DNA of 64,000 bases from Rhodococcus sp. HM1 (GTDB lineage Bacteria > Actinomycetota > Actinomycetes > Mycobacteriales > Mycobacteriaceae), in contig NZ_JALPTB010000007.1 in assembly GCF_023218075.1 (NCBI RefSeq), forward strand, positions 62,001 to 126,000. The letters run 5' to 3'. Positions 23,856 through 41,427 of this stretch are shown in pieces. The notes below the pieces were generated by a model that worked only from the letters and a program-made list of their open reading frames with translations, ran no database searches and had not been told where the DNA came from. The translations under genes were made by a program, and so were the position numbers. How positions within the stretch are numbered: position 1 is the first letter of the stretch; each line of letters starts with the position of its first letter.

Positions 23856-24563
23856 TCAGACGCTGCGGGTGACCCCGCCGTCGACGCGAATGTTCTGTCC
23901 GGTGATGTAGCTCGCTTCCTCGCCGGCAAGGAAGCGCACGGCACGAGCGATCTCCTGCGTGCTGGCGGCCCTGCGCAGCGGGATGCGCTGGGTCCACTCG
24001 GGGGCGACCGCGGAGGGGTCGGCGACGGTCCACCCCGGTAGGACGTTGTTCATGCGGATACCCGAGGGGCCGTACTCGTCGGAGTAGAGCTTGGTGAACG
24101 AAGCGAGCCCGGCCCGGAATGTCGCAGAAACCGGGTACCGAGGGTTCGGTTCGAACGGCGAACTGGTGGAGATGTTCACGATGCTGCCGCCCCCGGCCTC
24201 CAGGAAATGGGGGGTCACCACACGCGCCATCCGGACGACATTGAGCAGGTAGCCCTCCATACCGTCCTGCCAGTCGCTGTCCGTCAAATCGAGCACACCA
24301 CCGGTGGCACCGTGCCCGGAATTGTTGACCACCGTGTCGATCCGGCCGAACTCCGACAAGGCCAGGTCGACGACGGCCCGAAGATCTTCCTCGGAGCGGT
24401 TCGTCCCGTCCAGCCCCACACCGCCGAGTTCCTCGGCGAGTTTGCGCCCACGTCCGGACGGCGACAGGATCGCCACCCGATATCCGTGTTCGTGCAACTC
24501 CGTGGCGACGGCAGCACCGATGCCGGAACCACCTCCGACCACAACGGCTGTCTTCTGCGTCAT
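23856..24563 (-). CDS. Short-chain dehydrogenase/reductase lacking the active-site lysine
   Basis: The 235-residue SDR has a Rossmann cofactor loop (VVVGGGSGIGAAVA, residues 7-20), the NNSG strand motif and an active-site serine in VNISTSSPF. The usual YxxxK reads Y-P-V-S-A (RYPVSATFRAG), so the catalytic lysine is replaced by alanine. Similar YPVSA SDRs exist as a subfamily to my recollection, so this need not be a dead enzyme. ATG at 24563 overlaps the tetR stop as ATGA. It is the last gene of the transporter/monooxygenase transcript. Confidence 0.85.
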   Translation of the reverse strand: MTQKTAVVVGGGSGIGAAVATELHEHGYRVAILSPSGRGRKLAEELGGVGLDGTNRSEEDLRAVVDLALSEFGRIDTVVNNSGHGATGGVLDLTDSDWQDGMEGYLLNVVRMARVVTPHFLEAGGGSIVNISTSSPFEPNPRYPVSATFRAGLASFTKLYSDEYGPSGIRMNNVLPGWTVADPSAVAPEWTQRIPLRRAASTQEIARAVRFLAGEEASYITGQNIRVDGGVTRSV

Positions 24564-25198
24564 GAATTCCGTTCCTTGCTCAGTTGTTCGGCACGGCGCG
24601 CGATGAGCGCCTCGACTGCGGTTGCCGACAGGTCCGCGAATTCGGCGAAGTCGATGTCGTCTCCTGCGCACGCGGCGATATAGAAGCCGTCGGTCAGAGC
24701 ACGGCCGAGCACGACCATCTTTCGGCCGAACTCCGGATCCTCGGCAAGTACCTCCGCCGGGATCAGCGGTTCGACCCGCCGCACCATGTGCTCGAACATC
24801 TCCTTGCGGACTTCGAGGTACTTCTTGCGCGCCAGATTGTCCTCGAGGCGGCGATCCAGCGCGAACATCAGGGCGAGGATCCAGAAAGCCTCGGCCTTGT
24901 TCTCCGGATCCGCCGAACCACCCGCCGACCCGGCGATGCTACGGCGCAGCAGGTCCCGGTTCGTCGGACCTGTATGGTCCTTCTTCCAGATTTCGAAACA
25001 GAACTCGATGAGTTCCGCAAACAACTTCTCTTTGTTCTCGAAATGGTAGTAAATGGATCCGTTCGGCAGTCCGGAAAGCCTGGCCACCTCGGACATCGTG
25101 GTGCCCTCGTAGCCCGCCGTCACGGCCAGGGACAACGCCGCATCGAGGATCGCCCGCTCGTTTTCCGGGGTCGACTGATGAACTCGACGCCTCGCCAT
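24560..25198 (-). CDS. TetR-family transcriptional regulator
   Basis: The 212-residue regulator has an N-terminal helix-turn-helix (AILDAALSLAVTAGYEGTTMSEVARLSGLPNGSIYYHFENKEKLF, about residues 15-60). A helical ligand domain follows, resembling AcrR-type C-terminal domains. The ATG at 25198 is set by AAAGGAG five bases upstream. It lies 39 bases after the esterase stop and overlaps the SDR start by ATGA. It is thus co-transcribed with the genes it may control, a common autoregulatory layout. Confidence 0.92.
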   Translation of the reverse strand: MARRRVHQSTPENERAILDAALSLAVTAGYEGTTMSEVARLSGLPNGSIYYHFENKEKLFAELIEFCFEIWKKDHTGPTNRDLLRRSIAGSAGGSADPENKAEAFWILALMFALDRRLEDNLARKKYLEVRKEMFEHMVRRVEPLIPAEVLAEDPEFGRKMVVLGRALTDGFYIAACAGDDIDFAEFADLSATAVEALIARRAEQLSKERNS

Positions 25199-25237
25199 CT
25201 CAACTCCTTTCACCGCGACGCGACCACAAAGTGATCC

Positions 25238-26692
25238 CTATCGCTTTCTACCAGTGCGGCCGACCGAACCTTCGGTCACCGCTGTGACAGTGAGGTCGCC
25301 GGGAGCGACCACACGAGCACCGTCCCCCTCGACAGCGAGGAGTCGTGGGCTCTCCGGTCGCCACACCGGAGCAGTCCCGGAACCGTCACGCACGAACGGG
25401 ACGATCGCGTCCCGGAACGCCGCCCGCACACACTCGAACGTGTCCCGATCGACACCTTCCATCATCGGCGCACCGCGCCAAGCGTGGCGGTCGCCGAAGA
25501 CGAACGGGAGCGTGAAGCAGTGCGGCGACAACGCCCGTTCCAGGGAGCTGCGAACATCGAGGCGCATCAGTCTCGTTGGGACTGCGGCACTTCGGGCGAG
25601 GTCGTACGCCACCGATCGGAACTGCCACAGTGTCGTGGCGAGCACCATCTGCTCGTATCCCGACTCCCGCTCGGCCGTGTGGTCGAGCACCGCCTCCGGA
25701 GCGCTGAACGAGCGCGCCACGAAGTCCTCCAGCTTCTCTCGAGAGAAGGACTCGGCAGGTTGTGTTCTGAGGAAGGCCGCGGTCTCCTCGGCGGTGGTGA
25801 CCACCAGTAGCGCCGAGGTGTGCAGCCGAGCGGCACTCAGCTTCGGCTCCCCCAACCATCCGGGCATCCGCGGCCCGGCGGCCGGGGCGAAGGCGAATCC
25901 CGCACCGCGGTAGTTCAGCGCAGTGGTGCGCTGCGCGGCCAGGATCGACTCGACCGGAGCGGTGGCGAACCGTTCCGGTGCCAGTGCATCCTCGAATGCC
26001 GCGCGCCGCGCCTCGTGGTCGCACTCGGACAACGGGGCCAGGCGCGGCATGCTGAGTAACAGCGTGCGGGCGAACATTCCTCCGGTCTGCGGCAGGACAC
26101 TCAGCGCATGCGCGTACCACGCGCCGGCGGAGTCCCCGGCAATGGTGATGTTGGCCGGATCGCCGCCGAACGCGGCGATGTTGTCCCGTACCCAACGCGC
26201 TGCCACCTCGAGATCCCGTAGCGGCTGCGCCGAGGCATCGGCGTCGCCCGAGCCACCGAGGTGGCCGAGCGCGCCGATCCTGTAGCCGACCGTGACGAGC
26301 ACAATCCGTCCGCTGCGGACTAGGTCGTGCGCGTCGTACCAGCGCGACTCGCCGGAACCCGTTGTGAATCCACCACCGTGAACGAACAACAGCACCGGAA
26401 GCCCGGCCGAGTCGGCAGGTGCCTGGATCCTCAGAGAGAAGGAATCCTCGTGCTGGGGCAGTTCACCGAGTGCCTGCCCGAGGATCCCGTCGAGCATCCC
26501 GCCGATCTGGGGAAAGGCGGTAGGCGGCGACTGCGCGGTGGTCGGCGGTCCCAGCGCGGAACCACGGTCGGCTCGATCGAGCCGCGCGCCGTACCGCACA
26601 CCCCGGGCGTCGACGACCCCTTCGACGACTTCGGCACGGACGACACCGGTGTCGACCGCGAACTCTCCCGTATCCGCACTCACGGAGGTCAT
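25238..26692 (-). CDS. Carboxylesterase (type B family)
   Basis: The 484-residue alpha/beta-hydrolase has an oxyanion-hole HGGGF (VLLFVHGGGFTTGSG, about residue 100) and the nucleophile elbow GDSAGAW (ITIAGDSAGAWYAHAL, about residue 177). Carboxylesterase/lipase type B sequence follows. The ATG overlaps the stop of the Baeyer-Villiger monooxygenase (ATGA). The pairing suggests it hydrolyses the ester made by that monooxygenase, as in 4-hydroxyacetophenone-type pathways. This role is inferred from context, not from substrate-specific residues. Confidence 0.88.
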   Translation of the reverse strand: MTSVSADTGEFAVDTGVVRAEVVEGVVDARGVRYGARLDRADRGSALGPPTTAQSPPTAFPQIGGMLDGILGQALGELPQHEDSFSLRIQAPADSAGLPVLLFVHGGGFTTGSGESRWYDAHDLVRSGRIVLVTVGYRIGALGHLGGSGDADASAQPLRDLEVAARWVRDNIAAFGGDPANITIAGDSAGAWYAHALSVLPQTGGMFARTLLLSMPRLAPLSECDHEARRAAFEDALAPERFATAPVESILAAQRTTALNYRGAGFAFAPAAGPRMPGWLGEPKLSAARLHTSALLVVTTAEETAAFLRTQPAESFSREKLEDFVARSFSAPEAVLDHTAERESGYEQMVLATTLWQFRSVAYDLARSAAVPTRLMRLDVRSSLERALSPHCFTLPFVFGDRHAWRGAPMMEGVDRDTFECVRAAFRDAIVPFVRDGSGTAPVWRPESPRLLAVEGDGARVVAPGDLTVTAVTEGSVGRTGRKR

Positions 26693-28656
26693 GGCAGAAA
26701 GTCGTAGTCGTCCGGGTTCACGTGCTCGGTGATCTTCCAGTATTCGGCGTTGGTGTAGGGCCACACCTGTGAGACCCGGCCGACGCTGTTCTGGTACCAA
26801 CTGCGCACGTAGGGCTGACCCCACGCCATCAGACGGTTCTCCCGGTCGACCCACTCCACGAAGCGATCCAGGGCCTCGGGGGTGACGTCGAGAGCCTTGA
26901 CGCCCCGGTCGAGGACCTCACGGATCGCCTCGAGCGAGTACTCCCCGGCGCGCTCGAGCATGAAGTGCAGGCTGCCGGCGACGACACCACCGATGTTCGG
27001 CCCGTACAGCATGAAGAAGTTCGGGTAGCCCGGCACAGTGATGCCGTTGTACGCGCGGGCGTCGCCCTTCCAGAATTCGTGGATCTCCACCCCGCCTCGA
27101 CCGATCACCTCGACACCGTCGAGGTAGTCCGACGGCTTGAATCCGGTGGCGTAGACGATGAGGTCGACCTCGTGGTGCGTCCCGTCGGCGGTACGGATTC
27201 CGGTCTCGGTCAACTCCACGATGGCGTGCGTCGACACCGTAGTGCTTTCGGCCATCAGCGCTTTCGCCCACACGCCGTTGTCGCGCAGCATCCGCTTCGC
27301 ACCGGGCGGGTAGGACGGGACGGCGATCTCCAACAGGTCCGGTCGTCCCTCGAACTGCTCCGTCAGCCGCGCGATCAGTTCGTCGCGCACCTTCCGGTTC
27401 GTGGCGGAGACACTCAACGGCGCACCGGGCCAGTCCTTTTCGGCGCGGACGGTGTGGAATCGTCCGGGGATTCCCTGCGTGATGACCCACAACCGGTACC
27501 ACTGACCGTAGTAGGGGACCTTGCGCACCAGCCAGGCGAACGCCTCGGAATGGTTGTCGTGGTAGGTCGGGGCGGGCAGCATCCACGGGGCACTGCGCTG
27601 GAAGACGGTGAGCGAAGCCACCTCTTCGTAGATGGCAGGCACGATCTGATAGGCACTGGCACCGGTACCGATGACCGCGACCCGCTTGCCACGCCAGTCG
27701 TAGGAGTCGTCCCACTCCTGCGAGTGCATGGTGACTCCGCGGAAGCGTTCGGCTCCCGGGAAGTCGGGGATGTTCGGGATGTCGAGCTGCCCGACCGCGC
27801 TGACGATCGCCTGGAACGTGCGGGTGCGTTCGACGCCCTGCGCGTCCCGAGTCACCACGATCCACGCGCCGGCCTCGTCGTCCCAGCGTGAACTCACCAG
27901 TCGGGTGCCGAACTCGATCAGGTCGATGAGTCCGGCGCGCTCGGCGACCGTGTTCAGATAGTCGTCGATCTCCCCACCCTCGGCGAACTGGTGGGGCCAG
28001 TCGACCCGCTGCGCGAACGAGTAGGAATACCCGAAAGTCGGTGTGTCCAGGCGCACTCCAGGGTAGTGGTTCTTCTGCCAGGTACCACCCAGCCGATCGG
28101 CGGCGTCGATCATCGTGAAGGGCACACCGGCCTGACGGTAACGGTGCCCGGCGGCGATACCCGAGACACCCGCACCGACGATGAGCACCTCGAAGCGGCG
28201 CCCCTCGGCGACGTCCTCGAAGCGCCAGTCGGGAGCGGCACTCTTGTCCTCGGCCAGATCGAGTTCGTGCTTGAGCGAGTCGGACCAGTCGGCGTTGCCG
28301 CCGGTGAGGTAGCCCAGGACGTCGGTGACCGCGGTGTCGGAAAGCATGCCGACGCTGGTGATCCGTTCGTCGCGAAGGCGGCGCAGCCCTGCGAGCGCGA
28401 GCTCGCGGGCCTTGTGCTGCTGGGCTTCCGACATCCCCCCGTGCGGGTGCCCGATCGTGTCGACGGGCGTCAGCGGCGGGCGCAGGTCCTCGGTGAGGAC
28501 AGCGGTGTCACCCGTGGCCGCGGCGATGGCCACCAGCAGCGAGGGAAGATCGGCCTTGTCGGCGATCTCCTGCAGGAAGTCGTCGGATTCGGTGATCGGC
28601 TCGTACTCGTCGCGCCAGAACAGGTCGTCGTAGCGGTCGATACCTGAAGTGCTCAT
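26689..28656 (-). CDS. Type I Baeyer-Villiger monooxygenase, HAPMO-like
   Basis: The 655-residue FAD/NADPH enzyme inserts oxygen next to a ketone to give an ester. The FAD loop GAGVSG is at residues 161-166, the NADPH loop GTGAS follows, and the type I fingerprint FxGxxxHxxxW is present as FRGVTMHSQEW near residues 303-313. The extra roughly 150-residue N-terminal domain and overall length match 4-hydroxyacetophenone monooxygenase (about 640 residues) rather than cyclohexanone-type enzymes (about 540). It overlaps both neighbours by ATGA, the hydroxylase before and the esterase after. An aryl ketone substrate is likely but unproven. Confidence 0.9.
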   Translation of the reverse strand: MSTSGIDRYDDLFWRDEYEPITESDDFLQEIADKADLPSLLVAIAAATGDTAVLTEDLRPPLTPVDTIGHPHGGMSEAQQHKARELALAGLRRLRDERITSVGMLSDTAVTDVLGYLTGGNADWSDSLKHELDLAEDKSAAPDWRFEDVAEGRRFEVLIVGAGVSGIAAGHRYRQAGVPFTMIDAADRLGGTWQKNHYPGVRLDTPTFGYSYSFAQRVDWPHQFAEGGEIDDYLNTVAERAGLIDLIEFGTRLVSSRWDDEAGAWIVVTRDAQGVERTRTFQAIVSAVGQLDIPNIPDFPGAERFRGVTMHSQEWDDSYDWRGKRVAVIGTGASAYQIVPAIYEEVASLTVFQRSAPWMLPAPTYHDNHSEAFAWLVRKVPYYGQWYRLWVITQGIPGRFHTVRAEKDWPGAPLSVSATNRKVRDELIARLTEQFEGRPDLLEIAVPSYPPGAKRMLRDNGVWAKALMAESTTVSTHAIVELTETGIRTADGTHHEVDLIVYATGFKPSDYLDGVEVIGRGGVEIHEFWKGDARAYNGITVPGYPNFFMLYGPNIGGVVAGSLHFMLERAGEYSLEAIREVLDRGVKALDVTPEALDRFVEWVDRENRLMAWGQPYVRSWYQNSVGRVSQVWPYTNAEYWKITEHVNPDDYDFLP

Positions 28657-30305
28657 CTGTTCTCTTTCCTCCGGGAGCGGTCGACGCTGCGCGAGAGGTC
28701 GACGTAGGTCCGTAGTGCGGCGACGACCCGTGCCTCGTCGGCAGCGGTGAACACAGCCGCGACGTAGCGGTCCGGGCGAACGACGACGGCATGGGGCACC
28801 CCGAGCGGGCGGGCCGGGTCGACGAACGCGCCGGTGAGGTCGGTCAGATCGGAGGGCCCTGTCTCCTGCGGGCCACGATGGTGGCCGCGTGGGAGAAGAC
28901 GCACCCGTGGGACGCCGTTCCAGAACGGATCGCGCGCAACCTGCCCGGCACCTGTGGTGCCGAGTTCGAGGATCGCCCATCCGGTTCCGAGATGCGCGTC
29001 GAGGGGCGAGGTGGTGCCCTCGGCGGTCTCGACCGTCGGCTGGCTCATGGCCTTGCCGACGGCTTCTGCGAAGCGGGAGTCCACTTCACGTGCCGGTTCG
29101 ACGGCGACGCCCTTGGAGTAGTCCGGCGGGGTGATGAACCGCATGGAGGACAGATAGGCGTGGACCGGCGGGAACAGTCGCGCCACGGAGAAGACGACGT
29201 CGCGGGCGGCGGCTGCGACGCCGCGGGCCATGACGATCGAGCCGGTGATGTGCGAGATGCGCACCATCTTCTTGGCATGGGTACGACGTTCGGACTCGTA
29301 GCTGTCGAGCAGACGGTCGGTGCCCACACCGTCGAGTGCCGCCCGCAGCTTCCAGGCCAGGTTCGACGCGTCGCGAAGACCGGCATTGAGTCCCTGGCCG
29401 GAGAACGGGGGCATGAGATGGCCGGCGTCACCGACGAGGAATGCGCGTCCGGCCCGGTAGGTCTTGGCGAGCCGGCGGTGGGCGACGTAGACGACTGCGC
29501 GGCGGATGTCCTCCGGGGTCACCTGTGGGTGGAACGGAAGGACCAGTTCGCGGATCTTGTCCGGGCGGGTGATCTCCTCGGCGTCGTCGCCGGGAAGCAT
29601 CATGAATTCCAGACGCAGTCGTCCCTTGATGCCGGGGACGTAGACGTACGGCCGGGCGCCGTTGCCGTGGAACTCGGCGTAGGGCTCTTTCTCGCGGGTC
29701 GTGTTCAGCAGGTCGACGACCACCCAGCGTTCTTCCTGGGTCGATCCGACCAGGGGCACACCGAGGGCATCGCGGGTGAAGCTTCGGCCACCGTCCGCGC
29801 CGGCCAGCCACGATCCGACGACGGTCGAGGTGACGCCGTCCTCGGAGCGGGTGGTCACCGTGACGGTCGTGCCGTCCTGGGTGATCGCGACCGCGCGCTG
29901 GCCCGTTCGGAAGTCGATGTCGGGATGTTCGACCGCCCTGTCCCACAGCAGCTGTTCGAGGACGGGTTGATCGAACTGCGACTTCGCGGGGTGTCCGGTA
30001 CGGGAGGGAACGGGCTTGGACTGGGCGAGCAAGCGGTCGCCGAGACCGAAATAGCGTGCCCCGGTGTCCAGATAGGACTCCGCCTTGAGGTCGTCCGCCA
30101 AGCCCAGACGCTCGAGGATGCGGAATGACTCGTCGGCGATGCTGATGGCGCGGGGCAGGTCCCCGGGGGCGGTCATCGGTTCGATCACCGAGACCCGGGC
30201 ACCTTCGTCGGCGAGAAGCAGGGCGAGGGTGAGCCCCACGGGACCTCCGCCGACGACGACAACGTCTGCATCGATGTTGTTCTGCTGCATGTTCATCGCG
30301 GTCAC
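28653..30305 (-). CDS. FAD-dependent aromatic-ring monooxygenase (PheA/MhpA group)
   Basis: The 550-residue class A flavoprotein hydroxylase has a GGGPVG dinucleotide loop (residues 19-24), a DG motif (LAGADGGRSFTRDALG) and the flavin ribityl motif VGDAGHLMPPFSGQGLNAGLRDA. A C-terminal thioredoxin-like extension is typical of phenol, resorcinol and 3-hydroxyphenylpropionate hydroxylases. It likely hydroxylates a phenol ortho to an existing OH. Start GTG 30305 makes a GTGA overlap with the ABC ATPase; in-frame ATGs three and five codons later are alternatives. Substrate unknown. Confidence 0.88.
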   Translation of the reverse strand: MTAMNMQQNNIDADVVVVGGGPVGLTLALLLADEGARVSVIEPMTAPGDLPRAISIADESFRILERLGLADDLKAESYLDTGARYFGLGDRLLAQSKPVPSRTGHPAKSQFDQPVLEQLLWDRAVEHPDIDFRTGQRAVAITQDGTTVTVTTRSEDGVTSTVVGSWLAGADGGRSFTRDALGVPLVGSTQEERWVVVDLLNTTREKEPYAEFHGNGARPYVYVPGIKGRLRLEFMMLPGDDAEEITRPDKIRELVLPFHPQVTPEDIRRAVVYVAHRRLAKTYRAGRAFLVGDAGHLMPPFSGQGLNAGLRDASNLAWKLRAALDGVGTDRLLDSYESERRTHAKKMVRISHITGSIVMARGVAAAARDVVFSVARLFPPVHAYLSSMRFITPPDYSKGVAVEPAREVDSRFAEAVGKAMSQPTVETAEGTTSPLDAHLGTGWAILELGTTGAGQVARDPFWNGVPRVRLLPRGHHRGPQETGPSDLTDLTGAFVDPARPLGVPHAVVVRPDRYVAAVFTAADEARVVAALRTYVDLSRSVDRSRRKENR

Positions 30306-31129
30306 AACACCGCAGCCTGTCGCGAGGTGACCATTCCGGTCTTGTTGGTCTTGGCGATCTGCACCTGCTCGTAGACATGGGCGCGCAGTTCGCTGAAGCG
30401 GGTGAGCGAGCGTGTGCCGAGCTGGTCCCGCTCGTCCGGCAGGTCGATCTTCACGTCGTCCTGGATCACCGTGGGCGAGCTCGACAACACCAGGACCCGC
30501 TCACCGAGGTAGACGGACTCCTCGATGTCGTGGGTGACGAAGAGGATGGTCATGTTGTGCCGCTTCCACACCGAGCGGACGAGGTCCTCGAGGTCGGCCC
30601 GGGTCTGCGCATCGACCGCGGCGAACGGTTCGTCCATGAGCAGGACGCTCGGGTGCGTGGCGACCGCGCGGGCGATGGCGACGCGCTGTTGCATGCCCCC
30701 GGACAACTGCCAGGGGTAGCTGTTGCGAGCCTGCTCGAGGCCGACCGAGTGCAAAGCTTCGTCGACACGCGCGCGACGCTCCGCCTTGGACAGCTTGGCG
30801 ATCTTGAGCGGCAGTTCGATGTTGGCGGCCACCGTCATCCAGGGATAGAGGCTGCGACCGTACTCCTGGAACACCACGGCCATACCCCTGGCCGGCCCGT
30901 TGACGGGCCTGCCGTCGAGCACGACCGCACCCGAGGTCGGCGCCATGAGACCGGCGATGCACTTGAGCAGTGTGGTCTTGCCGCTTCCCGACGGGCCGAC
31001 GAGGCAGGCGAATTCACCCTGGTGCAGGTCGAAGGTGAGGGACTTGACCGCTTCGAACTCTTTGCCGTCCCGGCTGTATACCTTCTTGACCTTGTCGACG
31101 CGGAGTCGAACGTCTTGGTGATCAGTCAT
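30302..31129 (-). CDS. ABC importer ATPase, nitrate/sulfonate/taurine (SsuB/TauB) type
   Basis: The 275-residue ATPase has Walker [10 protein letters not shown] (about residue 44), Q-loop [11 protein letters not shown], signature [14 protein letters not shown] and Walker [13 protein letters not shown]. It energises the two permeases encoded just upstream. ATG 31129 is chosen because AAGGAAA precedes it; a GTG two codons upstream is possible. Members of this transporter class also import aromatic acids such as phthalate in rhodococci, which fits this catabolic setting. Confidence 0.93.
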
Positions 31130-31892
31130 TCGCACTTTCCTTCAATCCTTCGTACCAGCCGAGGACTCGGCCCTGGACGATCTGGAACAACACGGACAGC
31201 GCCACGCCGAGCAGCCCGAGCAGCACGATGCCGCTCCACATCTCGGGGATGTCGATCCGATTCTGGAAGTTGATGATGGCGTAGCCGATTCCTTCTGTGG
31301 CCGCGAACATCTCGGAGACGACCATCAGGACGAGGCCGACCGCGAGGCTCTGGCGGATGCCGGCGAAGATCTGCGGTGACGCGGCCGGGAGTACGAGATA
31401 CCGCATCCGGTCGATGCCGGTGAGTCCGTAGACCCGGCCGGTGTCGCTCTGAACCTCGTCGATGGAGGCGACGCCCTTGATGGTGTTGAGGAGGATGGGC
31501 CACAGACATCCGAGGACGATGACGGTGACCTTCATGGCGTCGTTGATGCCGATCAGCAGGAGCAGGACCGGGATCATGATCGTCGACGGGACCGCGCGGA
31601 GGAACTCGAGCAGCGGACTGAGCAGCCATCGCACCCAGTCGATCGAACCGATGGCGATACCGAGACCGACGCCGAGGACGATGGACAGCGCCAGGCCGAC
31701 CAGCAGACGCGCGATACTGGGGAGAGCGTCCTGCGTGAATCCGTCGCCGAGCCACACGGTGCGGAACGCGGTGACGAGTTGGTCCGGGTCGGGAACGTAG
31801 AAGCTGCCACCACCCTGCGTGGCCGCCCACCACGCTGCGATCAGCACGATCGGCAGGCCGACGAAATATCCGAGACTCTTCAGTGTTTTCAC
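31122..31892 (-). CDS. ABC importer permease, SsuC/TauC type (second subunit)
   Basis: The 256-residue protein has six predicted helices and a BPD_transp_1 fold. The coupling-helix EAA-type loop is in GRVYGLTGIDRMRYLVLPAASPQIFAGIRQSL (about residues 155-186). The GTG start overlaps the first permease stop by GTGA. Its 3' end nearly abuts the ATPase gene. With the other permease it should form a heterodimeric channel. Confidence 0.92.
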   Translation of the reverse strand: MKTLKSLGYFVGLPIVLIAAWWAATQGGGSFYVPDPDQLVTAFRTVWLGDGFTQDALPSIARLLVGLALSIVLGVGLGIAIGSIDWVRWLLSPLLEFLRAVPSTIMIPVLLLLIGINDAMKVTVIVLGCLWPILLNTIKGVASIDEVQSDTGRVYGLTGIDRMRYLVLPAASPQIFAGIRQSLAVGLVLMVVSEMFAATEGIGYAIINFQNRIDIPEMWSGIVLLGLLGVALSVLFQIVQGRVLGWYEGLKESAND

Positions 31893-33915: not shown

Positions 33916-35556
33916 TCACTGAGGAATGCATTCTGCTGGCCGCAGTCGGGCAGCGGAAAACACCGACTCCAAGGTCGAGTCGAGATCCTGAGCGAGACAT
34001 TCGGCCGCGATGACATGGTCCGGTCGCACAACCACCGCCGAGAACGGCCGCTGATGGAACCAGGACTTGAGCACGCCCGACGGATCGCCCACTACGTGCA
34101 CACCGTCCCCCGCGTTCTCCATTGCCCACGGAAGCTGGGAGGCAGGTACCAGATGCACCAGGCGTGCGCCGAGCGACTCCAGTCGCTCCAGGTTCTCCTT
34201 GTCGACGAGCTGCCGTGGATCGTTGTTCCACACGAAGATTCGCCAGCCGGACCCCGTCACATCGTCGAGCAGCCGATCGGTCGCGGCCGTCGTGCACACC
34301 CGCGGCTGCGGGAACAACGTACCGACAGCCGACTTGAAGTCCTCCGCAACGGGTACCGACTTCAACCGGGGCACCCGCGCCGGCACCACGACGCCGCGCT
34401 CGTAGCGCGGCATGGGCTTGAAGCCCTGCCCGGAGACATACGCCTTCAGTCGCGGCAACCGGTCGACGACCACTGCTGCGGCATCACGTGCCGCAGAACG
34501 CAGTTTGCTGCGGTTGGTGACCAGGTTGGCCATGCCGACCGACAGGTCGACCATTGCCTTCACATGGTCGCGACGCTCTTCCGCGTAGGTGTCGAGCAAC
34601 GCATCGTCGGCTTGCCCCTTCACCACCGCAGCCAGCTTCCAACCGAGATTCATCGCGTCACGAATGCACGAATTCCATCCCTGCCCGGCGACCACCGGCA
34701 TGACGTGGGCGGCATCGCCGGCCAGGAGGATCGGTCCTTCCCGGAACCGGGACGCCAACCGCGCGTGATGGGTGTAGACACGTCGACGGATGATGTTCAG
34801 CCGCTTCGGGTCGGGCACGTGATCGGCGAGGAGACCGTAGATGAACTCGTCCGATTCGACGAGCTCCTCCCCCTCGTCGTCGAGCATCATGAACTCCCAG
34901 CGCCGAATCCCGTGCGGGAGGCTCAAAGTGGCGTAGCCACGCGTAGGGTCACCGCCGAACACCGCGTGCGGCGTGCCGATCGGGTCGTCGGCGACGTCGA
35001 TCACGAGACCGCGTTGCTTGCGGGTCTCGCCTTCGAACTCGATGCCGAGACGGGTCCGGGTGAAGGACCGGCCGCCCTCGCACCCGATGACGTAGCGCGC
35101 CGTGATCTGCGAGGTCACCTCCCCCGACTTGACGGTGACCGTCGCTTCGTCGTCGGTGTAGGTGAGGTCGATCGCTTCGGTCCCGAGCCGGACGTCGACC
35201 GTCTCGAAACGCTCCAAGCCCGCCAACAGGACCTGGTCCACCAGCGGCTGAACGAAGCCGTTGCGCCGCGGCCATCCGAATTCACGTGTCGTGGGGTTGA
35301 TCTCGGCGATGACCTTCATCTCGCCGTTGACGATCCGGACCTGCTGGTCGGGGACCGTGTGCGGCAGCACCTTGTCCACGAGGCCGATCGACTGCATGAC
35401 CCGCAGGGCCTCGTCGTCGATACCGACCGCCCGCGGATAGTCGATGAGCTCGTCGAGTGCCTCGATCAGCACCGTGCGCACACCGTGCTGGCCGAGCAGG
35501 TTCGCGAGCGTGAGACCGGTGGGGCCCGCGCCGATGATCAGGACGTCCGTGTTCAC
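33916..35556 (-). CDS. MhpA-like 3-(3-hydroxyphenyl)propionate-type hydroxylase
   Basis: The 546-residue class A flavoprotein monooxygenase is close in length to E. coli MhpA (about 554). The FAD loop is GAGPTG (residues 9-14), the DG-type motif reads IGCEGGRSFTRTRLG, and LLAGDAAHVMPVVAGQGWNSCIRDA is the ribityl-binding motif. The family adds a hydroxyl to a 3-hydroxyphenyl acid to give a catechol for MhpB. The GTG start overlaps the aldolase stop (GTGA) and has GAGGAG upstream. Its position with MhpB, MhpC and MhpD homologues supports a meta-pathway hydroxylase; the actual ring substrate is not known. Confidence 0.88.
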   Translation of the reverse strand: MNTDVLIIGAGPTGLTLANLLGQHGVRTVLIEALDELIDYPRAVGIDDEALRVMQSIGLVDKVLPHTVPDQQVRIVNGEMKVIAEINPTTREFGWPRRNGFVQPLVDQVLLAGLERFETVDVRLGTEAIDLTYTDDEATVTVKSGEVTSQITARYVIGCEGGRSFTRTRLGIEFEGETRKQRGLVIDVADDPIGTPHAVFGGDPTRGYATLSLPHGIRRWEFMMLDDEGEELVESDEFIYGLLADHVPDPKRLNIIRRRVYTHHARLASRFREGPILLAGDAAHVMPVVAGQGWNSCIRDAMNLGWKLAAVVKGQADDALLDTYAEERRDHVKAMVDLSVGMANLVTNRSKLRSAARDAAAVVVDRLPRLKAYVSGQGFKPMPRYERGVVVPARVPRLKSVPVAEDFKSAVGTLFPQPRVCTTAATDRLLDDVTGSGWRIFVWNNDPRQLVDKENLERLESLGARLVHLVPASQLPWAMENAGDGVHVVGDPSGVLKSWFHQRPFSAVVVRPDHVIAAECLAQDLDSTLESVFSAARLRPAECIPQ

Positions 35557-36287
35557 GATTCACTCCTCAGGGATGCGATGTTCTGGCGTGCCTGGGCCCC
35601 GACCATGACAAGGTCGATCCCGAGCCCCACGTAATCGATCAGCTCGGCACGAGCCAGAGCGGCTGCGTAAGTGGGGGAACCGGCGTAGATTCCACAGGTT
35701 CGTCCGTATGCTCGTGCGACCTTTGCGATCTCGACGATCGCGTCGTACACCGGACCGTCCGCCCAGTCGGCCCCGCCTCCGAGACCGAAGGACACGGCCA
35801 GATCCGCCGGTCCGATGTAGACGGACCCGACACCGTCCACCGAAAGGATCTCCTCGGCGGCGTCGAGGCCACGGCGCGTCTCGATCTGCACGATGCACTC
35901 GACCGCGTCGTTCCCGGCCTCGGTGTAGCTGCTGCCGGAATACAGCTGGGGGCGGCTGGGCCCCAGGCTGCGGCGACCCAGCGGCGGATACTTGGTCGCC
36001 GCCACGAGTGCTCTTGCCTCATCGGCACTTTCGACGGTCGGAGCGATGATGCCGCGCGCGCCGCTGTCCATCAGGCGACCGATCGGACCGGAGTCGATGC
36101 TCGCCACGCGCACGTACCGGTATCGGACGTCGCGCGGGATCGCCCGAAGCATCGTGCAGGCGGTCTCCAACCCGACTTCACCGTGCTGCAGATCGATGAC
36201 AACCCCGTCGTACCCGTTGAACAAGCCGCTTTCGACGATGCTCAACGACGGCGTGGCGACGTGGAGGAGGGCGGGGATGCTCGTCAC
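35553..36287 (-). CDS. HpcH/HpaI-family class II aldolase
   Basis: The 244-residue metal-dependent aldolase of the HpcH/HpaI group has a catalytic His in LQHGEVGLE (about residue 33) and metal ligands Glu in IVQIETRRGLDAAEEI and Asp in IGPADLAVSFG. Such enzymes split 4-hydroxy-2-oxo acids to pyruvate plus an aldehyde, the last step of a meta pathway. MhpE/MhpF-type aldolase-dehydrogenase genes are absent, so it may replace them. The GTG start overlaps the SnoaL-like gene and the stop overlaps the hydroxylase gene. Confidence 0.88.
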   Translation of the reverse strand: MTSIPALLHVATPSLSIVESGLFNGYDGVVIDLQHGEVGLETACTMLRAIPRDVRYRYVRVASIDSGPIGRLMDSGARGIIAPTVESADEARALVAATKYPPLGRRSLGPSRPQLYSGSSYTEAGNDAVECIVQIETRRGLDAAEEILSVDGVGSVYIGPADLAVSFGLGGGADWADGPVYDAIVEIAKVARAYGRTCGIYAGSPTYAAALARAELIDYVGLGIDLVMVGAQARQNIASLRSES

Positions 36288-36766
36288 TTGTCGGCCTCGG
36301 CCAGCCGACGAGCGTGCGCCGCTGCGTTCTCGCCGCCGAAGACCGGAACGATCTCCCGGCGGCGAATGCGCCATTCCCCGTCCACCTGGACGTACTCCTC
36401 GCGGAACTCGCCGACGCTGGCGGGGCGCAGCGGATCGTCCTGCGTGCTGCGGAACGTCGTGTAGTAGGTCGTGCCCGTGAGGACTCCGTCCTTCCAGGCG
36501 AGTCGGGTGCCGCCCGAGAAGTGGCGGACCGTTCCCGCGTCCTGGGTGACCCGGCGTTCCCCCCACGCCTTGATGGCGTCGCGGCCGTTCATGGTGCCGA
36601 GCGGCCCGACCGAGACCGCATCCTCGGCATACAGGGTGTAGAGCCGGTCGGCGTGACCGTGGTCGAGCAGCCAATGATGCTCCGCCACCAATTGTTCGAT
36701 GGCGACGCGAATCTCGGTGGTGACGGCGGGTGTCGACCCGGAAGTGTTCTCGGTGTTCTCGGTCAT
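36284..36766 (-). CDS. SnoaL-like protein of the catabolic operon
   Basis: The 160-residue NTF2-fold protein contains EIRVAIEQLVAEHHWLLDHGHADRLYTLYAEDAVSVGPLGTMNGRDAI (residues 18-64), FREEYVQVDGEWRIRRREIVPVF and a charged tail. The fold covers hydratases and isomerases as well as ring-hydroxylating dioxygenase small subunits, but no large subunit is nearby. It sits between the hydratase gene (5-base gap) and the aldolase gene (GTGA overlap). It may act on a ring-cleavage intermediate. It is only distantly similar to the SnoaL-like protein at 19182. Confidence 0.78.
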   Translation of the reverse strand: MTENTENTSGSTPAVTTEIRVAIEQLVAEHHWLLDHGHADRLYTLYAEDAVSVGPLGTMNGRDAIKAWGERRVTQDAGTVRHFSGGTRLAWKDGVLTGTTYYTTFRSTQDDPLRPASVGEFREEYVQVDGEWRIRRREIVPVFGGENAAAHARRLAEADK

Positions 36767-36770
36767 CGGT

Positions 36771-37565
36771 TCATGCCTTCGAATCGAGGGTTGCGCGCAC
36801 GCAACCCAGTCCGGTGATGGTGGCGGTGCATTCGACGTCGGCCGGCCAGGGCTCGATGTATCCGATCGAACCCGAGAGCAGGATCTCGCCGGCCCGCAAC
36901 GGATGCCCGATCCGCAGTGCCGTCTCGGCGAGCCATTGCACCGCCTTGATCGGGTGGCCGAGCACGTTGCTTCCGATGCCCCGGGTGATCTCGTCACCGG
37001 TCGCGGTGGTGATCGACATCTCGACACCGGTGAGATCGACCTCGCCGTAGGCGTGTCGTTCCTCGCCGAGGACGACCCCGTCGCACCCTGCGTTGTCGGC
37101 AATGGTGTCGACGATCTTCCCGACATTGCCGGCAAAGCGGAAATCGACGAGTTCGAATGCGGGAGTGATGTATTCGATCGCGTCCTCGATCGCATCGGGG
37201 TCGGCAACGAGGATGTCCTTCGCCAGGACGAAGGCGACCTCGGCCTCGATGCGCAGGAAGTTGTGCGCGGACGCGGGGATCACGACGCCCGAGGAGTGGA
37301 CCATGTCGTCGTGGATGATGCCGTAGTCGGGTTCGAAGACCCCGACCCGCTTCTGCACGAGCGGGTTCGTCAGACCGACCTTACGGCCGACACGACGCAC
37401 ACCGAGTTCGGCCTCCCGCCGGGCCGCGACGAGCTCGGAGATGCTGTACGCCGCATCGAGATCACGCTCGGGCAGCCGCGGACTGACGAAGTCCATGGTG
37501 GTGACGTCGCGGCGGGCGCGATAGAGCTCGTCGGCGATCTGTTCGATGACGCTGGTCTCTGTCAT
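36771..37565 (-). CDS. MhpD-like 2-oxopent-4-enoate hydratase
   Basis: The 264-residue member of the hydratase/4-oxalocrotonate decarboxylase family (FAH superfamily) contains GRKVGLTNPLVQKRVGVFEPDYG (about residues 61-83). The metal-site EAEVAFVL is near residue 107, FELVDFRF follows, and the C-terminus is typical. It adds water to the dienoate released by the MhpC-like hydrolase. It lies three bases after mhpC and five before the SnoaL-like gene, with an ATG at 37565. Confidence 0.9.
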   Translation of the reverse strand: MTETSVIEQIADELYRARRDVTTMDFVSPRLPERDLDAAYSISELVAARREAELGVRRVGRKVGLTNPLVQKRVGVFEPDYGIIHDDMVHSSGVVIPASAHNFLRIEAEVAFVLAKDILVADPDAIEDAIEYITPAFELVDFRFAGNVGKIVDTIADNAGCDGVVLGEERHAYGEVDLTGVEMSITTATGDEITRGIGSNVLGHPIKAVQWLAETALRIGHPLRAGEILLSGSIGYIEPWPADVECTATITGLGCVRATLDSKA

Positions 37566-37568
37566 GGT

Positions 37569-38444
37569 TCAGCCTTTTCGTGCGAGGAAGTCGAGGACGG
37601 TGGCGTTGAAGGTTTCGGGGTCCTCCCACTGCGGCCAGTGCGCCGCATTCTCGATGAGCAGGAACTGGCCGTCCGGAATCGACTCGGCGAGTTCCTTTCC
37701 CACCTCGGGTCCGCCGCTGGGCTCGTGGTCGGTCCATACCAGCAATGCAGGTACGGGGATCGCCGCGAAGTCCTCGTCGGTGACCCGGTTGCGGTAGCGG
37801 GTCTCCGGCTGACGCAGCACCGCGATGTGGTGCATGGCGTCGCCGAAGCCGTCGCGGGAGTACACCGCCTGCCGGATGTGGACCAGTTCGTCGGTGATCT
37901 TGCCGGGGTCGTGGATGACGACCTGCAGCCGCTTCTTGACGTTGTCGTAGGTCGGTTCGGTGACGGCCTGGCGGCTGACCGACTGGGCACGGTCGACCCG
38001 CTCGGCGGTCGTGACGCGACCGCCCGGGGCACTGAGGATCACCGTCCGCACCCGATCGGGGTGGTGGCCGGCGAACTTGATCGCGATCCAGCCGCCGAGG
38101 GACTCGCCGCACAGGTGCGCGCGGTCCAGGCCGAGCACGTCGAGCAGGGCGAGCAGGTGTTCCTCGTATTCGGGGATCTCGAGGTCGTGGTCGGTCAGGG
38201 TGGTGAAGCCGTGACCGGGATAGTCGTATCCCACCACCCGGTACTTCGAGGCCAGAGCACGGATGTTCTGGGTGAAGGCCTCGATGTGGCCGGTGGTTCC
38301 GTTGAGCAGGACCACGGTCTGCTCGTCGGGTCCGCCGGGGCCGTCGACGGTGAGTACGCGGGTGCGCCAGCCGTTCACCTCGAGATATTCGAGGCGGTGC
38401 GGCAGGTCGGCGACGGCTTCCCAGAAGGTCTTGAACTCGTACAT
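37569..38444 (-). CDS. MhpC-like meta-cleavage product hydrolase
   Basis: The 291-residue alpha/beta-hydrolase cleaves the C-C bond of a ring-fission product. The oxyanion segment is VVLLNGTTGHIEAF, the nucleophile elbow HLCGESLGG (Ser near residue 100), the acid in LLVWTDHEP, and the histidine in NAAHWPQWEDPETF near the C-terminus. The last resembles the E. coli MhpC ending. It starts four bases after the second MhpB-type gene, from ATG 38444 (MYEFKTFWEA). The neighbourhood makes a carbon-carbon hydrolase far likelier than a lipase. Confidence 0.88.
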   Translation of the reverse strand: MYEFKTFWEAVADLPHRLEYLEVNGWRTRVLTVDGPGGPDEQTVVLLNGTTGHIEAFTQNIRALASKYRVVGYDYPGHGFTTLTDHDLEIPEYEEHLLALLDVLGLDRAHLCGESLGGWIAIKFAGHHPDRVRTVILSAPGGRVTTAERVDRAQSVSRQAVTEPTYDNVKKRLQVVIHDPGKITDELVHIRQAVYSRDGFGDAMHHIAVLRQPETRYRNRVTDEDFAAIPVPALLVWTDHEPSGGPEVGKELAESIPDGQFLLIENAAHWPQWEDPETFNATVLDFLARKG

Positions 38445-38448: not shown

Positions 38449-39384
38449 TCACGCTCCGATCGCGGCCTGGATACCGAAGCCGGCGCCCCAGGTCTCCACG
38501 GCCCAGTAGTGGTCGACGGTGAGCCGGTAGGGGCCGGCGGTGGACAGGGCGGCGTACGCCGCGATCCAGCTGCGCATCTCGTGGGCCGCGCTGCCCCCTT
38601 CGGCGACGAACCGGTCGTTGTCCCAACCGTCGACGGCGGACAGCTCACCGGAGCGGAAGGTGTTCAGCACCAGCGCGTCCCAGGCTTCGTTGAGCGGTGC
38701 GCTCGAGGCCTTGCCGTCGGCGATGGCCTGGATACCCTTCACGATCGCCTGTTCGCGGGCGGCGCGCTCCTCCCGACTGGGGGCGTACTCGACGAGGCGC
38801 CGGCGCACCGGTTCCGGGGCGTCGTCCCAGCGCGGGACGGGCGGGTTGTGCGAGATGCCGCCGGAGGCCACCAGCAGAACTCGCTTGTCGAGCTGCTGCG
38901 CCGCCCGGCCCACGGCCTCCCCGAACAACCGGACACGCTGCATCGGCGTGAGCGGGAATCCGAGAGCGTTGACGAAGATCGGAACGATGGGCCGGCTCAA
39001 GGGGTGGCCGTAGATGAATTCGAGCGGTTGCAGGATGCCGTGGTCCACCGTCATCCGCTCGGACCGGCCGATGTCGATTCCCTGTTCGAGGACCAGTGCG
39101 TGCAGGGTTCGGGCGATGTCCCCGTCGACGGGCACCGGGCCTGCTGTGGTGCCGTAGTCACCGACACCGACGGCCTCGGCTCCGATCGCCCAGGGGGTAA
39201 TCAGCGAGTACAGCTGACCGTTGAAGTGATCGGGGCCCAGTGCGACGACCACCTCGGGGTCGAAGCTCTCGACGAAGGAGCGCACTTCACCGATTGCGGC
39301 CTCGATTTCCGCCATCGTCGTGCCTCCCGGGTCGACATTGCCGAATGACGGCGCATGGGACAGGGCGGCGACTGCCAAAGGCAT
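38449..39384 (-). CDS. MhpB-like class III extradiol ring-cleavage dioxygenase (copy 2)
   Basis: The 311-residue LigB-type iron dioxygenase aligns well with E. coli MhpB (314 residues). The N-terminal ALSHAPSFGNVDP, GPDHFNGQLY (about residue 53), TVDHGILQPLEF and ASGGISHNPPVPR carry the metal and catalytic histidines. It opens a catechol ring next to the hydroxyls. ATG 39384 (MPLAVAALSHAP) is chosen from the family N-terminus and AAAGGA nine bases upstream; ATG 39402 is less likely. It is the first gene of the main ring-cleavage operon, just below the nested palindrome. Confidence 0.92.
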   Translation of the reverse strand: MPLAVAALSHAPSFGNVDPGGTTMAEIEAAIGEVRSFVESFDPEVVVALGPDHFNGQLYSLITPWAIGAEAVGVGDYGTTAGPVPVDGDIARTLHALVLEQGIDIGRSERMTVDHGILQPLEFIYGHPLSRPIVPIFVNALGFPLTPMQRVRLFGEAVGRAAQQLDKRVLLVASGGISHNPPVPRWDDAPEPVRRRLVEYAPSREERAAREQAIVKGIQAIADGKASSAPLNEAWDALVLNTFRSGELSAVDGWDNDRFVAEGGSAAHEMRSWIAAYAALSTAGPYRLTVDHYWAVETWGAGFGIQAAIGA

Positions 39385-39442: not shown

Positions 39443-39482
39443 GACTCTAGTCTCTAGAGTCGTCACTCTAGAGACTAGAGTC
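39443..39482. promoter_or_regulatory. Nested double-palindrome operator (or attenuator) of the ring-cleavage operon
   Basis: Two 17-base palindromes, ACTCTAG-TCT-CTAGAGT (39444-39460) and ACTCTAG-AGA-CTAGAGT (39465-39481), are separated by CGTC. Together they form one perfect 18-bp inverted repeat. On the minus strand a TTGCGG -35-like element lies upstream, and TAGAGT inside the repeat could be the -10. Six T residues follow the repeat on the minus strand. It is 58 bases upstream of the copy 2 dioxygenase start. Confidence 0.75.
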
Positions 39483-39633: not shown

Positions 39634-40578
39634 TCAGGAACCGACCGGATCGGTCAGCATGATGCCGAAACCGGCACCCCATTCGTGGACCGGCCAGTAC
39701 CAGCGGCCTGCGACCGTCGGGGTGTCGACGGCGTTGACCGCCGCGAAGGCGGCGACCCACGCACGGATCTCGTGCGCCGATCCCCCACCCTCACGCGCCA
39801 TCCAGTCGGTGGCCCATCCGTCGACCGCGTCGAGACGACCCTCGGCGAAGGTGTCCATGACGAGCCGGTCGAACTCCTCGTTGAGGGGCTGCTGACCGGT
39901 GCCGGTGCGCACGTGCTCGCGCGCGGCCTCGATGACCCGGCGCTGCCGTTCCTCCCGCTGCTCGGGGGTGTAGTGACGACCGTCGATCAGACGCTCACGC
40001 AGCTGCTCCGGCGCCCCCTCGAGCTTCGGGACCGGCGGATCGTGCGACAGACCTCCGGATCCGACGATCAGCACCCGCTTGTTCCAGCGGGCGGCCTCGC
40101 GGCCGATCGCCTCACCGAACCTGCGCACGCGGCGCATCGGCACCAGCGGCAGACCGACCGCGTTGACGAACACCGGCACGATGGGACGCTCGTAGTCCAC
40201 GCCGTAGAGCATCTCGAGCGTCTGCGTCATGCCGTGGTCGACATACAGCCGCTCGGACTGGGCGACGTCGATCTCCTCGTCGAACACCGCCTGCACGAGC
40301 CGGGCGGCATGCTCCCGGTCGACCGGCAACGCGCGTTGCTGCGTGCTCCAGTCCCCGACGCCGATGGCCTCGGAGCCGATGCAGAACGGCGGCATCATGT
40401 CGTAGAAGACACCGTTGAAATGATCGGGTCCGAAGACGATCGTGATCTCGGGATCGAAGTCCTCGATCGCCTTCCGAATCTCGTCCGTCGCCGCATCGAT
40501 CTCACCCAGCACGCCACCGGCGGGCTCGATCTCGCCGATGAGCGGCGAGTGCGACATCGTGCAGACCGCGATGGCCAT
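39634..40578 (-). CDS. MhpB-like class III extradiol ring-cleavage dioxygenase (copy 1)
   Basis: The 314-residue LigB-type enzyme has the same length as E. coli MhpB. It shows TMSHSPLIGEIEP at the N-terminus, FGPDHFNGVFYDMMPPFCIG (about residues 49-68), LYVDHGMTQTLEM and GSGGLSHDPPVPK with the expected histidines. It cleaves a 2,3-dihydroxyphenyl compound at the meta position. It starts three bases after the FAH-family stop, so the two are cotranscribed, and is followed by a terminator. It is clearly related to copy 2 at 38449 but diverged, so different substrate ranges are possible. Confidence 0.93.
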   Translation of the reverse strand: MAIAVCTMSHSPLIGEIEPAGGVLGEIDAATDEIRKAIEDFDPEITIVFGPDHFNGVFYDMMPPFCIGSEAIGVGDWSTQQRALPVDREHAARLVQAVFDEEIDVAQSERLYVDHGMTQTLEMLYGVDYERPIVPVFVNAVGLPLVPMRRVRRFGEAIGREAARWNKRVLIVGSGGLSHDPPVPKLEGAPEQLRERLIDGRHYTPEQREERQRRVIEAAREHVRTGTGQQPLNEEFDRLVMDTFAEGRLDAVDGWATDWMAREGGGSAHEIRAWVAAFAAVNAVDTPTVAGRWYWPVHEWGAGFGIMLTDPVGS

Positions 40579-40581
40579 CGG

Positions 40582-41427
40582 CTACTGCTCCGCGACGATC
40601 TCGTTGCGCAGGACCCCGAGGCCGGTGATCTCGACCTCGACCACATCGCCGGGATTCAGCAGCGCCGGCGGGTCCATGAACAGGCCCACACCACCCGGGG
40701 TTCCGGTGACGATGATGTCGCCGGGCGCGAGCGGGGTGAAGGTCGAGATGTGCTCGATCAACCGGTCGATCGGGCAGCGCATGTCCGCAATCGTGGCCTT
40801 CTGGCGCTGCTCACCGTTGACCCGCGTCTCGAGGGTGCATTCCTGAATGTCCTCGATGTCGGCGGCCGGCACGAAGTACGGGCCCATCGCGCCGGTGCGC
40901 GGGAAGTTCTTCCCCGGGATCCACTGCGTCGTGGCGCGCTGCCAGTCACGCACGGTGAAATCGTTGTAGATGCTGTAGCCCGCGATCACCGACTGCGCCT
41001 CGGCAGCGGGAACCTTGAAGGCCGGAGCGCCGATGACCACGGCGAGCTCACCCTCGTAGTCGAACTGGGTGCCCACCGCCGGGATCTCGACCGGGACCAG
41101 GTGACCGGTCTGGGAGTCGGCAAACCGCGTGAACAGGGTCGGGGCACCGACCTCGGCCTTACCGGTCTCCTCCAGATGCGACCGGTAGTTGACGCCCACG
41201 CAGATGATCTTGGCGGGGTTCGGCACGGCCGGCAGGAAGGAAACCTCGGACTCCTCGGCAACGGGCTCGAGGCCGTCGACCAGCGAATCGCGCAGCAGAC
41301 CCGCGGCTATGGCGTCGCGCAGGGAAGCGGCCACGTCGGCGCCGTTCACGCCCAGGTCGTAGACCTGCCCGTCGACCACGGCACCCCAACTCTGACGACC
41401 CTCAACCTCGAAACTCACGTACTTCAC
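40582..41427 (-). CDS. Fumarylacetoacetate hydrolase-family protein
   Basis: The 281-residue FAH-superfamily enzyme has metal ligands in DYEGELAVVIG (about residue 125), YNDFTVRDWQ and the VTGTPGGVG loop near the C-terminus. Relatives hydrolyse or isomerise oxo-dienoates such as fumarylpyruvate or HpaG substrates. GTG 41427 (MKYVSFEVEG) is favoured because GAGGAG is eight bases upstream; a GTG two codons earlier is possible. It heads a two-gene unit with the first MhpB-like dioxygenase, so it may act on a ring-cleavage product not handled by the MhpC-like hydrolase. Confidence 0.88.
   Translation of the reverse strand: MKYVSFEVEGRQSWGAVVDGQVYDLGVNGADVAASLRDAIAAGLLRDSLVDGLEPVAEESEVSFLPAVPNPAKIICVGVNYRSHLEETGKAEVGAPTLFTRFADSQTGHLVPVEIPAVGTQFDYEGELAVVIGAPAFKVPAAEAQSVIAGYSIYNDFTVRDWQRATTQWIPGKNFPRTGAMGPYFVPAADIEDIQECTLETRVNGEQRQKATIADMRCPIDRLIEHISTFTPLAPGDIIVTGTPGGVGLFMDPPALLNPGDVVEVEITGLGVLRNEIVAEQ

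Follow-up and report, generated by a model that had tools for sequence, protein, structure and literature searches.

Several bacterial routes pair a Baeyer-Villiger monooxygenase (BVMO) with a hydrolytic enzyme. The hap cluster for 4-hydroxyacetophenone follows this logic with a long BVMO and an esterase, and also holds genes for a hydroquinone dioxygenase and a maleylacetate reductase. In the bpf system for bisphenol F of Sphingobium yanoikuyae DN12, as described in the accessible part of the report, the characterised pair BpfC and BpfD, a BVMO and an alpha/beta hydrolase, splits 4,4'-dihydroxybenzophenone (PMC12724174). For anthraquinone, the available sections of another study propose BVMO and hydrolase genes from omics data, the first BVMO being thought of as type II (PMC9836352), and excerpts of a third place an extradiol dioxygenase and a phenylacetone monooxygenase at one locus of Rhodococcus opacus 1CP and a BVMO at another (PMC13101518). 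Here we analysed a 64,000-nucleotide stretch of Rhodococcus sp. HM1 (the window; assembly GCF_023218075.1, contig NZ_JALPTB010000007.1, positions 62,001 to 126,000), which contains an 18-gene cluster at window positions 23056-41514. Our tentative reading, to which we give a probability of roughly 40%, is that this cluster was acquired by horizontal transfer and serves to break down a two-ring aromatic ketone, which would be split by a BVMO and an esterase, each half then being degraded by a module of its own.

The stretch is 18,459 bp long and has a GC content of 65.9%, versus 69.4% elsewhere in the window. DNA of the sister genome G017 aligns up to window position 23055 and again from 41515, with 3 bases between, and there the two flanking genes, encoding a P-type ATPase and an MBL hydrolase, are adjacent, 25 bases separating the matched stretches. 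Of 17 relatives from the genus, all gave the MBL gene and 16 the ATPase gene at the cut-offs used; these are immediate neighbours in three (G017, and in the same way G004 and G008), 1.5-3.4 kb apart in four (G001, G002, G007 and G013), and far apart, on separate contigs or not both found in the remaining ten. The edge alignment of relatives took in 8 of the 35 loci returned by the flanking-gene searches. The absence of the stretch between neighbouring flank genes in close relatives, together with the drop in GC, identifies it as an insertion and, as judged from these alignments, the 18-gene block is a horizontally transferred island. A P450, a KstD-like flavoprotein (the label is our own), the MBL hydrolase and the P-type ATPase lie outside it. 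No tRNA was found in the window, and the family matches read for the island genes included no integrase or transposase. A megablast search of 23856..41427 against 72,556 plasmid records returned three records with matches of 53-73 bases only, near records possibly having been omitted. An inverted repeat with 11-base arms (23057-23080), at the left edge of the island after the ATPase stop codon, may be a terminator or an insertion relic.

Seventeen of the genes lie on the minus strand, from an SDR oxidoreductase (23856..24563; PF13561) to an enzyme of the FAH superfamily (40582..41427; PF01557); the eighteenth encodes a GntR/FCD regulator on the plus strand (23142..23813; PF00392/PF07729). Seven of the 16 minus-strand junctions overlap (six by 4 bases, one by 14), six have gaps of 3-5 bases, and three are wider: 39 bases between the genes for a TetR regulator and the esterase (EST), 133 between those for the substrate-binding protein (SBP) and the hydroxylase MhpA1, and 249 between those for the dioxygenases MhpB2 and MhpB1. 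These counts depend on the chosen starts, which were trimmed by judgement from gene overlaps; some family searches were run mostly on the longest open frames and later work on the trimmed starts. An open reading frame at 37562..38032 had no family match and was taken as a spurious frame within the MhpC gene. The original prediction, made from the sequence of this region, had described at least fifteen minus-strand genes with many short overlaps, which agrees with this organisation. The gene types that it named, among them an importer, hydroxylases, a BVMO, an esterase, an SDR and dioxygenases, were all found where it had placed them, and its list was incomplete, lacking the TetR gene inside the run (24560..25198, minus strand; PF00440) and the GntR/FCD gene that also belongs to the island.

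As judged by comparison of loci, the island splits into two modules. Module 1 consists of the LigB-type extradiol dioxygenase MhpB2 (38449..39384; PF02900), an alpha/beta C-C hydrolase of the MhpC/HsaD type (37569..38444), an MhpD-type hydratase (36771..37565), a SnoaL-like protein (36284..36766; PF13577), an HpcH/HpaI-type aldolase (35553..36287; PF03328), whose nearest solved structures are HpcH/HpaI aldolases, and the 3-HPP-hydroxylase-type MhpA1 (33916..35556). Module 2 consists of the BVMO (26689..28656; 655 aa), the carboxylesterase EST (25238..26692), the group A flavin hydroxylase MhpA2 (28653..30296; PF01494), the FAH enzyme and a second extradiol dioxygenase, in the window the LigB-type MhpB1 (39634..40578; PF02900). 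Between MhpA2 and MhpA1 lie the genes of an ABC importer: its ATPase (30302..31135), permeases B (31122..31892) and A (31889..32806), and an SBP of the SsuA/NMT1 type (32811..33782; PF09084, with TIGR01728 below cut-off).

All 18 genes recur in the same order in G501, a genome from another family of the same class, with identities of ~51-86%, some genes being matched over part of their length and MhpA2 in two pieces (55 and 69%). Recurrence in a different family implies that the arrangement is beyond chance. The G501 cluster is flanked by RNase J and sulfate-permease genes at one end and by histidine-kinase and acetate-kinase genes at the other. In Agromyces sp. H66, SDR-TetR is followed by MFS-MhpB2-MhpC-MhpD-SnoaL-HpcH-MhpA1-ABC-MhpA2-BVMO and then by GntR-VOC-FAH. 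G276 has SDR-TetR and MFS-MhpB2-...-MhpA1-BVMO-MhpA2-FAH, with a BVMO of 53% identity, and at a second nearby locus a closer BVMO (67%) with MFS, VOC, another FAH and another hydroxylase. G496 has MhpB2-...-MhpA1-FAH-MhpA2-BVMO (44% for the BVMO), with TetR (45%), SDR (47%) and MFS genes nearby. The FAH enzyme is present in all five other clusters compared (51-79%). The SDR is 80% identical in G501, the TetR 72% in G501 and 52-55% in Agromyces and G276, the EST 51% in G501 and 44% in a Leucobacter metagenome-assembled genome (MAG), and the GntR at the same end 75%, 56% and 54% in G501, Leucobacter and Agromyces, respectively.

Each module also occurs without the other. The Leucobacter locus, a 13.9 kb contig of a MAG of unstated completeness, has module 2 without module 1, in the form of EST-MhpA2-FAH, GntR, VOC, BVMO, flavin-reductase-domain and MmgE/PrpD genes, with a gene for an HpaB-type hydroxylase nearby; elsewhere in the MAG, only a distant LigB match was found. 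G1160 has a related module 1, with MhpB, MhpC (51-64%), MhpD (48%), SnoaL (50%), HpcH (49%) and MhpA1 (51-53%), the last being the best-scoring of the listed family matches outside the island. At E 1e-6, the BVMO, EST and FAH had no match in the 32 kb fetched from this genome, and MhpA2-like hydroxylases were likewise absent apart from cross-matches to MhpA1. The adjoining operon encodes a BphC-type dioxygenase, a flavin reductase, an MhpC homolog, a predicted HsaA-like enzyme of the Acyl-CoA_dh_2 family, an MFS transporter and an SDR. Relatives of module 1 are thus coupled to different partner modules. Both this module 1 beside another ring-opening operon and the Leucobacter locus, where module 2 has an HpaB-type gene nearby and no close MhpB was detected, are compatible with each of two rings being handled by a set of its own.

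The second dioxygenase appears to be exchangeable. In the window and G501 it is the LigB-type MhpB1, adjoining FAH; in Agromyces, Leucobacter and G276 its place is taken by an unrelated enzyme of the VOC type, adjoining FAH in Agromyces and the GntR-FAH pair in Leucobacter. Searches for a VOC ortholog found none in the window genome (best match 30%) and gave no match at E 1e-15 in G501; conversely, Agromyces, Leucobacter and G276 yielded no MhpB1 ortholog, their best matches being MhpB2 or distant LigB proteins. By this comparison, MhpB1 and VOC are mutually exclusive among the five. Both hydroxylase clades occur together in 5/5 clusters that combine module 1 with a BVMO (window, G501, Agromyces, G276 and G496), and two dioxygenases are present in four of these five neighbourhoods.

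The hydroxylases MhpA1 and MhpA2 are 35% identical and belong to separate clades. MhpA1, 45% identical to E. coli MhpA, lies with it inside a 16-row clade (support 99/99); the MhpA1 proteins of the five clusters group at 88/89, under the tool's starred level, and the four without G496 at 100/100. The MhpA2 clade has seven rows (100/99), one of them from a plasmid of the lentil strain Rhizobium sp. NZLR1, where relatives of MhpA2 (53%), FAH (46%) and VOC (59% to that of Agromyces) lie within ~4 kb together with a cupin gene. Plasmid p5 of this strain (L065 15881-26881) carries two VOC and two FAH genes, the MhpA2 relative, a further FAD monooxygenase gene and a cupin gene, and may serve flavonoid catabolism. 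MhpA1-type enzymes are common, occurring in 60/340 genomes of the family at E 1e-150, with at most 54% identity outside the island among the matches listed. MhpA2 was found at E 1e-110 in three of 394 genomes of the class (its own, G501 and G496) and MhpB2 at E 1e-100 in two of 397 genomes of the order (its own and G276); these and the BVMO frequencies given below are valid for the samples and cut-offs used. The window genome has a second MhpA-type gene (50%) and a LigB-type match ~1.8 kb apart on another contig (C166 64376-68633), possibly an ordinary Mhp pathway.

The original prediction had spoken of a duplicated MhpB branch, and this does not fit the two proteins. MhpB1 (44% identical to E. 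coli MhpB) and MhpB2 share only 47% identity and each has its own ortholog in G501, at 73% and 76%, respectively, which makes them old paralogs and rules out a recent duplication. The catalytic histidines of E. coli MhpB are His115 and His179, and the equivalents of both are retained in MhpB1 and MhpB2. The MhpD-type hydratase is 38% identical to E. coli MhpD. The MhpC-type hydrolase is 27% identical to E. coli MhpC, and has an Asn at the position of its His42; among its structural matches, those of the HsaD/BphD type rank above E. coli MhpC. E. coli MhpE has no match in the island at E 1e-10, HpcH being present, and no MhpF-type acetaldehyde dehydrogenase family was among the island-gene matches, no dedicated MhpF query having been made. 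The missing MhpE and the extra modules rule out a simple Mhp operon.

Type I BVMOs are recognised by an FxGxxxHxxxW fingerprint and two Rossmann motifs, and the island BVMO has the fingerprint FRGVTMHSQEWD at 305, GAGVSG at 161 and GTGASA at 330, which places it in this type. Alignments to BVMOs in the PDB begin at query residue ~150, and an N-terminal extension of ~150 residues is a trait of HAPMO; the long form expected in the original prediction was thus borne out, this extension being the one feature behind its label 'HAPMO-like'. The protein belongs to a set of six sequences with 58-74% pairwise identity. Its gene overlaps that of EST, a COesterase-family protein (PF00135) with a GDSAG motif, by 4 bases. 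The other 17 genomes of the genus hold no close relative (best 41%); the one scan of genome contigs made with the BVMO detects close relatives only. At E 1e-140, 8/397 genomes of the order have a match, with over 60% identity in three, its own included, and at E 1e-200 one of 396 genomes of the phylum, its own. The window genome has 26 stretches that match the FMO-like family, 25 of them above cut-off. On a Rhodococcus antarcticus plasmid (L012 2314-13905), a BVMO relative (41%) directly follows a similar four-gene ABC importer, with cupin, FAH and maleylpyruvate-isomerase genes nearby in a gentisate-like setting; G336 (L047) has a comparable importer ~3 kb away from a BVMO relative of 47% identity.

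Gene content, insertion, conservation, modularity, the palindrome described below and the hydroxylase phylogeny are direct observations, beside which the reactions, their order, the substrate and the pairing of regulator and site are predicted from sequence. The substrate would be taken up by the ABC importer, and the BVMO would insert oxygen next to the carbonyl; the esterase would then hydrolyse the ester to a phenolic half and a hydroxyphenylalkanoate half. We favour such a split of a two-ring aryl ketone because it is the simplest scheme that uses both modules; BpfC and BpfD of the bpf system and the BVMO and hydrolase genes proposed for anthraquinone are precedents for it. The phenolic half would go to module 2, with hydroxylation by MhpA2, cleavage by MhpB1 and hydrolysis by FAH, and the acid half to an Mhp-like meta route in module 1, through MhpA1, MhpB2, the MhpC-type hydrolase, MhpD and HpcH, the last in place of MhpE. 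A diaryl ketone of plant type, for instance a dihydrochalcone, a deoxybenzoin or a flavonoid derivative, may be the substrate; its plant origin is a guess by analogy with the lentil Rhizobium plasmid and the flavonoid clusters fde and ifc. A more specific version, in which a mobile pathway cuts a flavonoid-type skeleton between its rings by a Baeyer-Villiger step and opens each ring with its own dioxygenase, seems to us rather unlikely.

Several observations weigh against this two-ring scheme. G496 has both hydroxylases, the BVMO and FAH, and a single ring-cleavage dioxygenase in its cluster; neither a VOC ortholog nor an MhpB1 was found there apart from MhpB2 and distant relatives, which speaks against a second dioxygenase being strictly required. 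In G276, the FAH that adjoins the VOC gene is another one (34%) and not the ortholog. The MhpB of G1160 shares 49% identity with each of MhpB1 and MhpB2, and the TetR of this genome is only 34% identical. At E 1e-8, the loci of Agromyces, G276 and G496 yielded no EST and those of G276, G496 and Leucobacter no ABC importer, and G386 has a BVMO with no island within the 40 kb fetched. Finally, MhpA-type enzymes want an ortho- or meta-hydroxylated ring, and most plant B rings are para-hydroxylated.

The route envisaged in the original prediction, from ketone to ester, phenol, catechol and ring opening, fits the set of BVMO, EST, phenol-type hydroxylase and extradiol dioxygenase and may hold for module 2. 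As a complete account, it becomes the degradation of a single-ring acylphenol, with the second hydroxylase and dioxygenase serving related substrates. The overlap of the BVMO and EST genes, the single dioxygenase of the G496 cluster and the BVMO and esterase proposed from transcriptomics for acetophenone in Rhodococcus rhodochrous GD02, as given in the accessible part of PMC9618137, all speak for it. A single acylphenol, however, needs one hydroxylase and one dioxygenase, so that two of each, in separable modules, are left unexplained; the joint retention of both hydroxylase clades in 5/5 clusters, the two dioxygenases in 4/5 neighbourhoods and the existence of a related module 1 without a BVMO in G1160 argue in the same direction. 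The scheme is thus not supported as stated, and we regard a single-ring substrate as rather unlikely. A benzo-fused cyclic ketone of the indanone, tetralone or chromanone type would place the BVMO, EST and an MhpA-clade enzyme in one line: the BVMO would form a lactone, the esterase would open it to an acid of the 3-(2-hydroxyphenyl)propionate type, with the ortho-hydroxyl group that suits MhpA-type enzymes, module 1 would degrade this acid, and module 2 would take a more hydroxylated analogue. This has no necessary role for MhpA2, MhpB1/VOC and FAH, which are nevertheless kept with the BVMO in Leucobacter, and we consider it unlikely.

An A-ring-first flavonoid route as in fde/ifc seems improbable to us. 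MhpA2 would hydroxylate and MhpB1 or VOC would cleave the A ring of an intact flavonoid, FAH would trim the product, and the BVMO would act later on the left-over ketone. The joint occurrence of MhpA2, VOC and FAH relatives with a cupin gene in the lentil Rhizobium is in line with such an order, as is the use by fde/ifc of an FAD monooxygenase and then a glyoxalase-fold protein, described in the available portion of PMC11069340; the window genome, however, has no close VOC relative, its best match being the 30% one, and the island genes gave no match to a cupin family. A flavonoid route of the two-ring kind that we prefer may differ both from this A-ring-first route and from the C-ring-cleaving bacterial routes covered in the same portion of PMC11069340.

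Regulation offers a further conserved feature. All 6/6 module 1 loci (window, G501, Agromyces, G276, G496 and G1160) carry the palindrome TCTAGA-N8-TCTAGA, either exactly or with a single mismatch, the window copy at 39453..39472 being an exact match. Its position in the window, G501, Agromyces and G276 is upstream of either MhpB2 or the MFS gene in front of MhpB2; G496 has an exact copy upstream of an MFS gene and only a two-mismatch copy beside MhpB2 and TetR; and in G1160, the interval between TetR and the BphC-type operon holds the copies, none having been found upstream of MhpB. There, beside the module 1 operon, three similar sites (L140 12747-13003) possibly define one regulon covering both ring-opening operons. 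Six further matches with up to two mismatches in 787,004 bases of other loci all fell in overlapping copies of the same cluster regions, and shuffling the window gave an expected 0.29 palindromes at up to two mismatches, with at least one in 24 of 100 shuffles. We infer that the palindrome is a candidate operator of the conserved TetR, which would act upstream of MhpB2, and that the GntR would control module 2. The longer arms of the window palindrome together with a T6 run also score as a terminator, and another strong hairpin follows MhpB1.

As the original prediction had supposed, no described pathway of exactly this composition was found in the open-licence literature, most subscription journals lying outside its coverage, no publication on Agromyces H66 was found there, and those on oxybenzone, indanone and phloretin yielded no matching cluster. 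The parts are known; the way they are combined, their transfer as one block and the exchange of the dioxygenase seem to lack a description in that literature. Testable predictions on substrate and regulation follow from the modules of this compact cassette, from its exchangeable dioxygenase and from its conserved palindrome. If the two-ring reading is true, the island would represent an oxidative route by which bacteria degrade two-ring aromatic ketones, possibly of plant origin, and a starting point in the search for BVMOs that act on aryl ketones; if a single ring is the substrate, the island would still be a transferable combination of known enzymes not found described in the literature searched.

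Set against the hap cluster, the island lacks hydroquinone dioxygenase and maleylacetate reductase families among its matches. With the E. coli mhp system for 3-(3-hydroxyphenyl)propionate, a comparison that the original prediction had called for, it shares a hydroxylase of the MhpA clade, homologs of MhpB (MhpB1 and MhpB2, with the MhpB histidines) and of MhpD; it differs in the divergent MhpC with Asn for His42, in having no MhpE homolog, and in adding an HpcH aldolase, SnoaL, FAH, BVMO, EST and a second hydroxylase. The acpAB genes for acetophenone of Rhodococcus rhodochrous GD02 likewise combine a BVMO with an esterase, but form a two-gene cluster for a single ring, co-induced with the cat/pca (beta-ketoadipate) genes according to the accessible part of the report (PMC9618137). 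The fde/ifc clusters, in the portions available, direct an FAD monooxygenase and an extradiol dioxygenase at a plant two-ring compound, but with a glyoxalase-type dioxygenase and cupin proteins (PMC11069340, PMC11303751). A glyoxalase-type (FdeC/IfcB) dioxygenase beside the hydroxylase is absent from the window island, the VOC enzyme being found in Agromyces, Leucobacter and G276; the word 'Baeyer' is absent from the main text of PMC11069340, which, in its accessible part, reports IfcA homologs only from Proteobacteria. The bpf system starts with a pair resembling p-cresol methylhydroxylase and, in the available part of its description, no Mhp-like module is named (PMC12724174); its BVMO and hydrolase, acting in that order, split a diaryl ketone into two aromatic halves (PMC12724174), a cleavage of the kind that we propose here.

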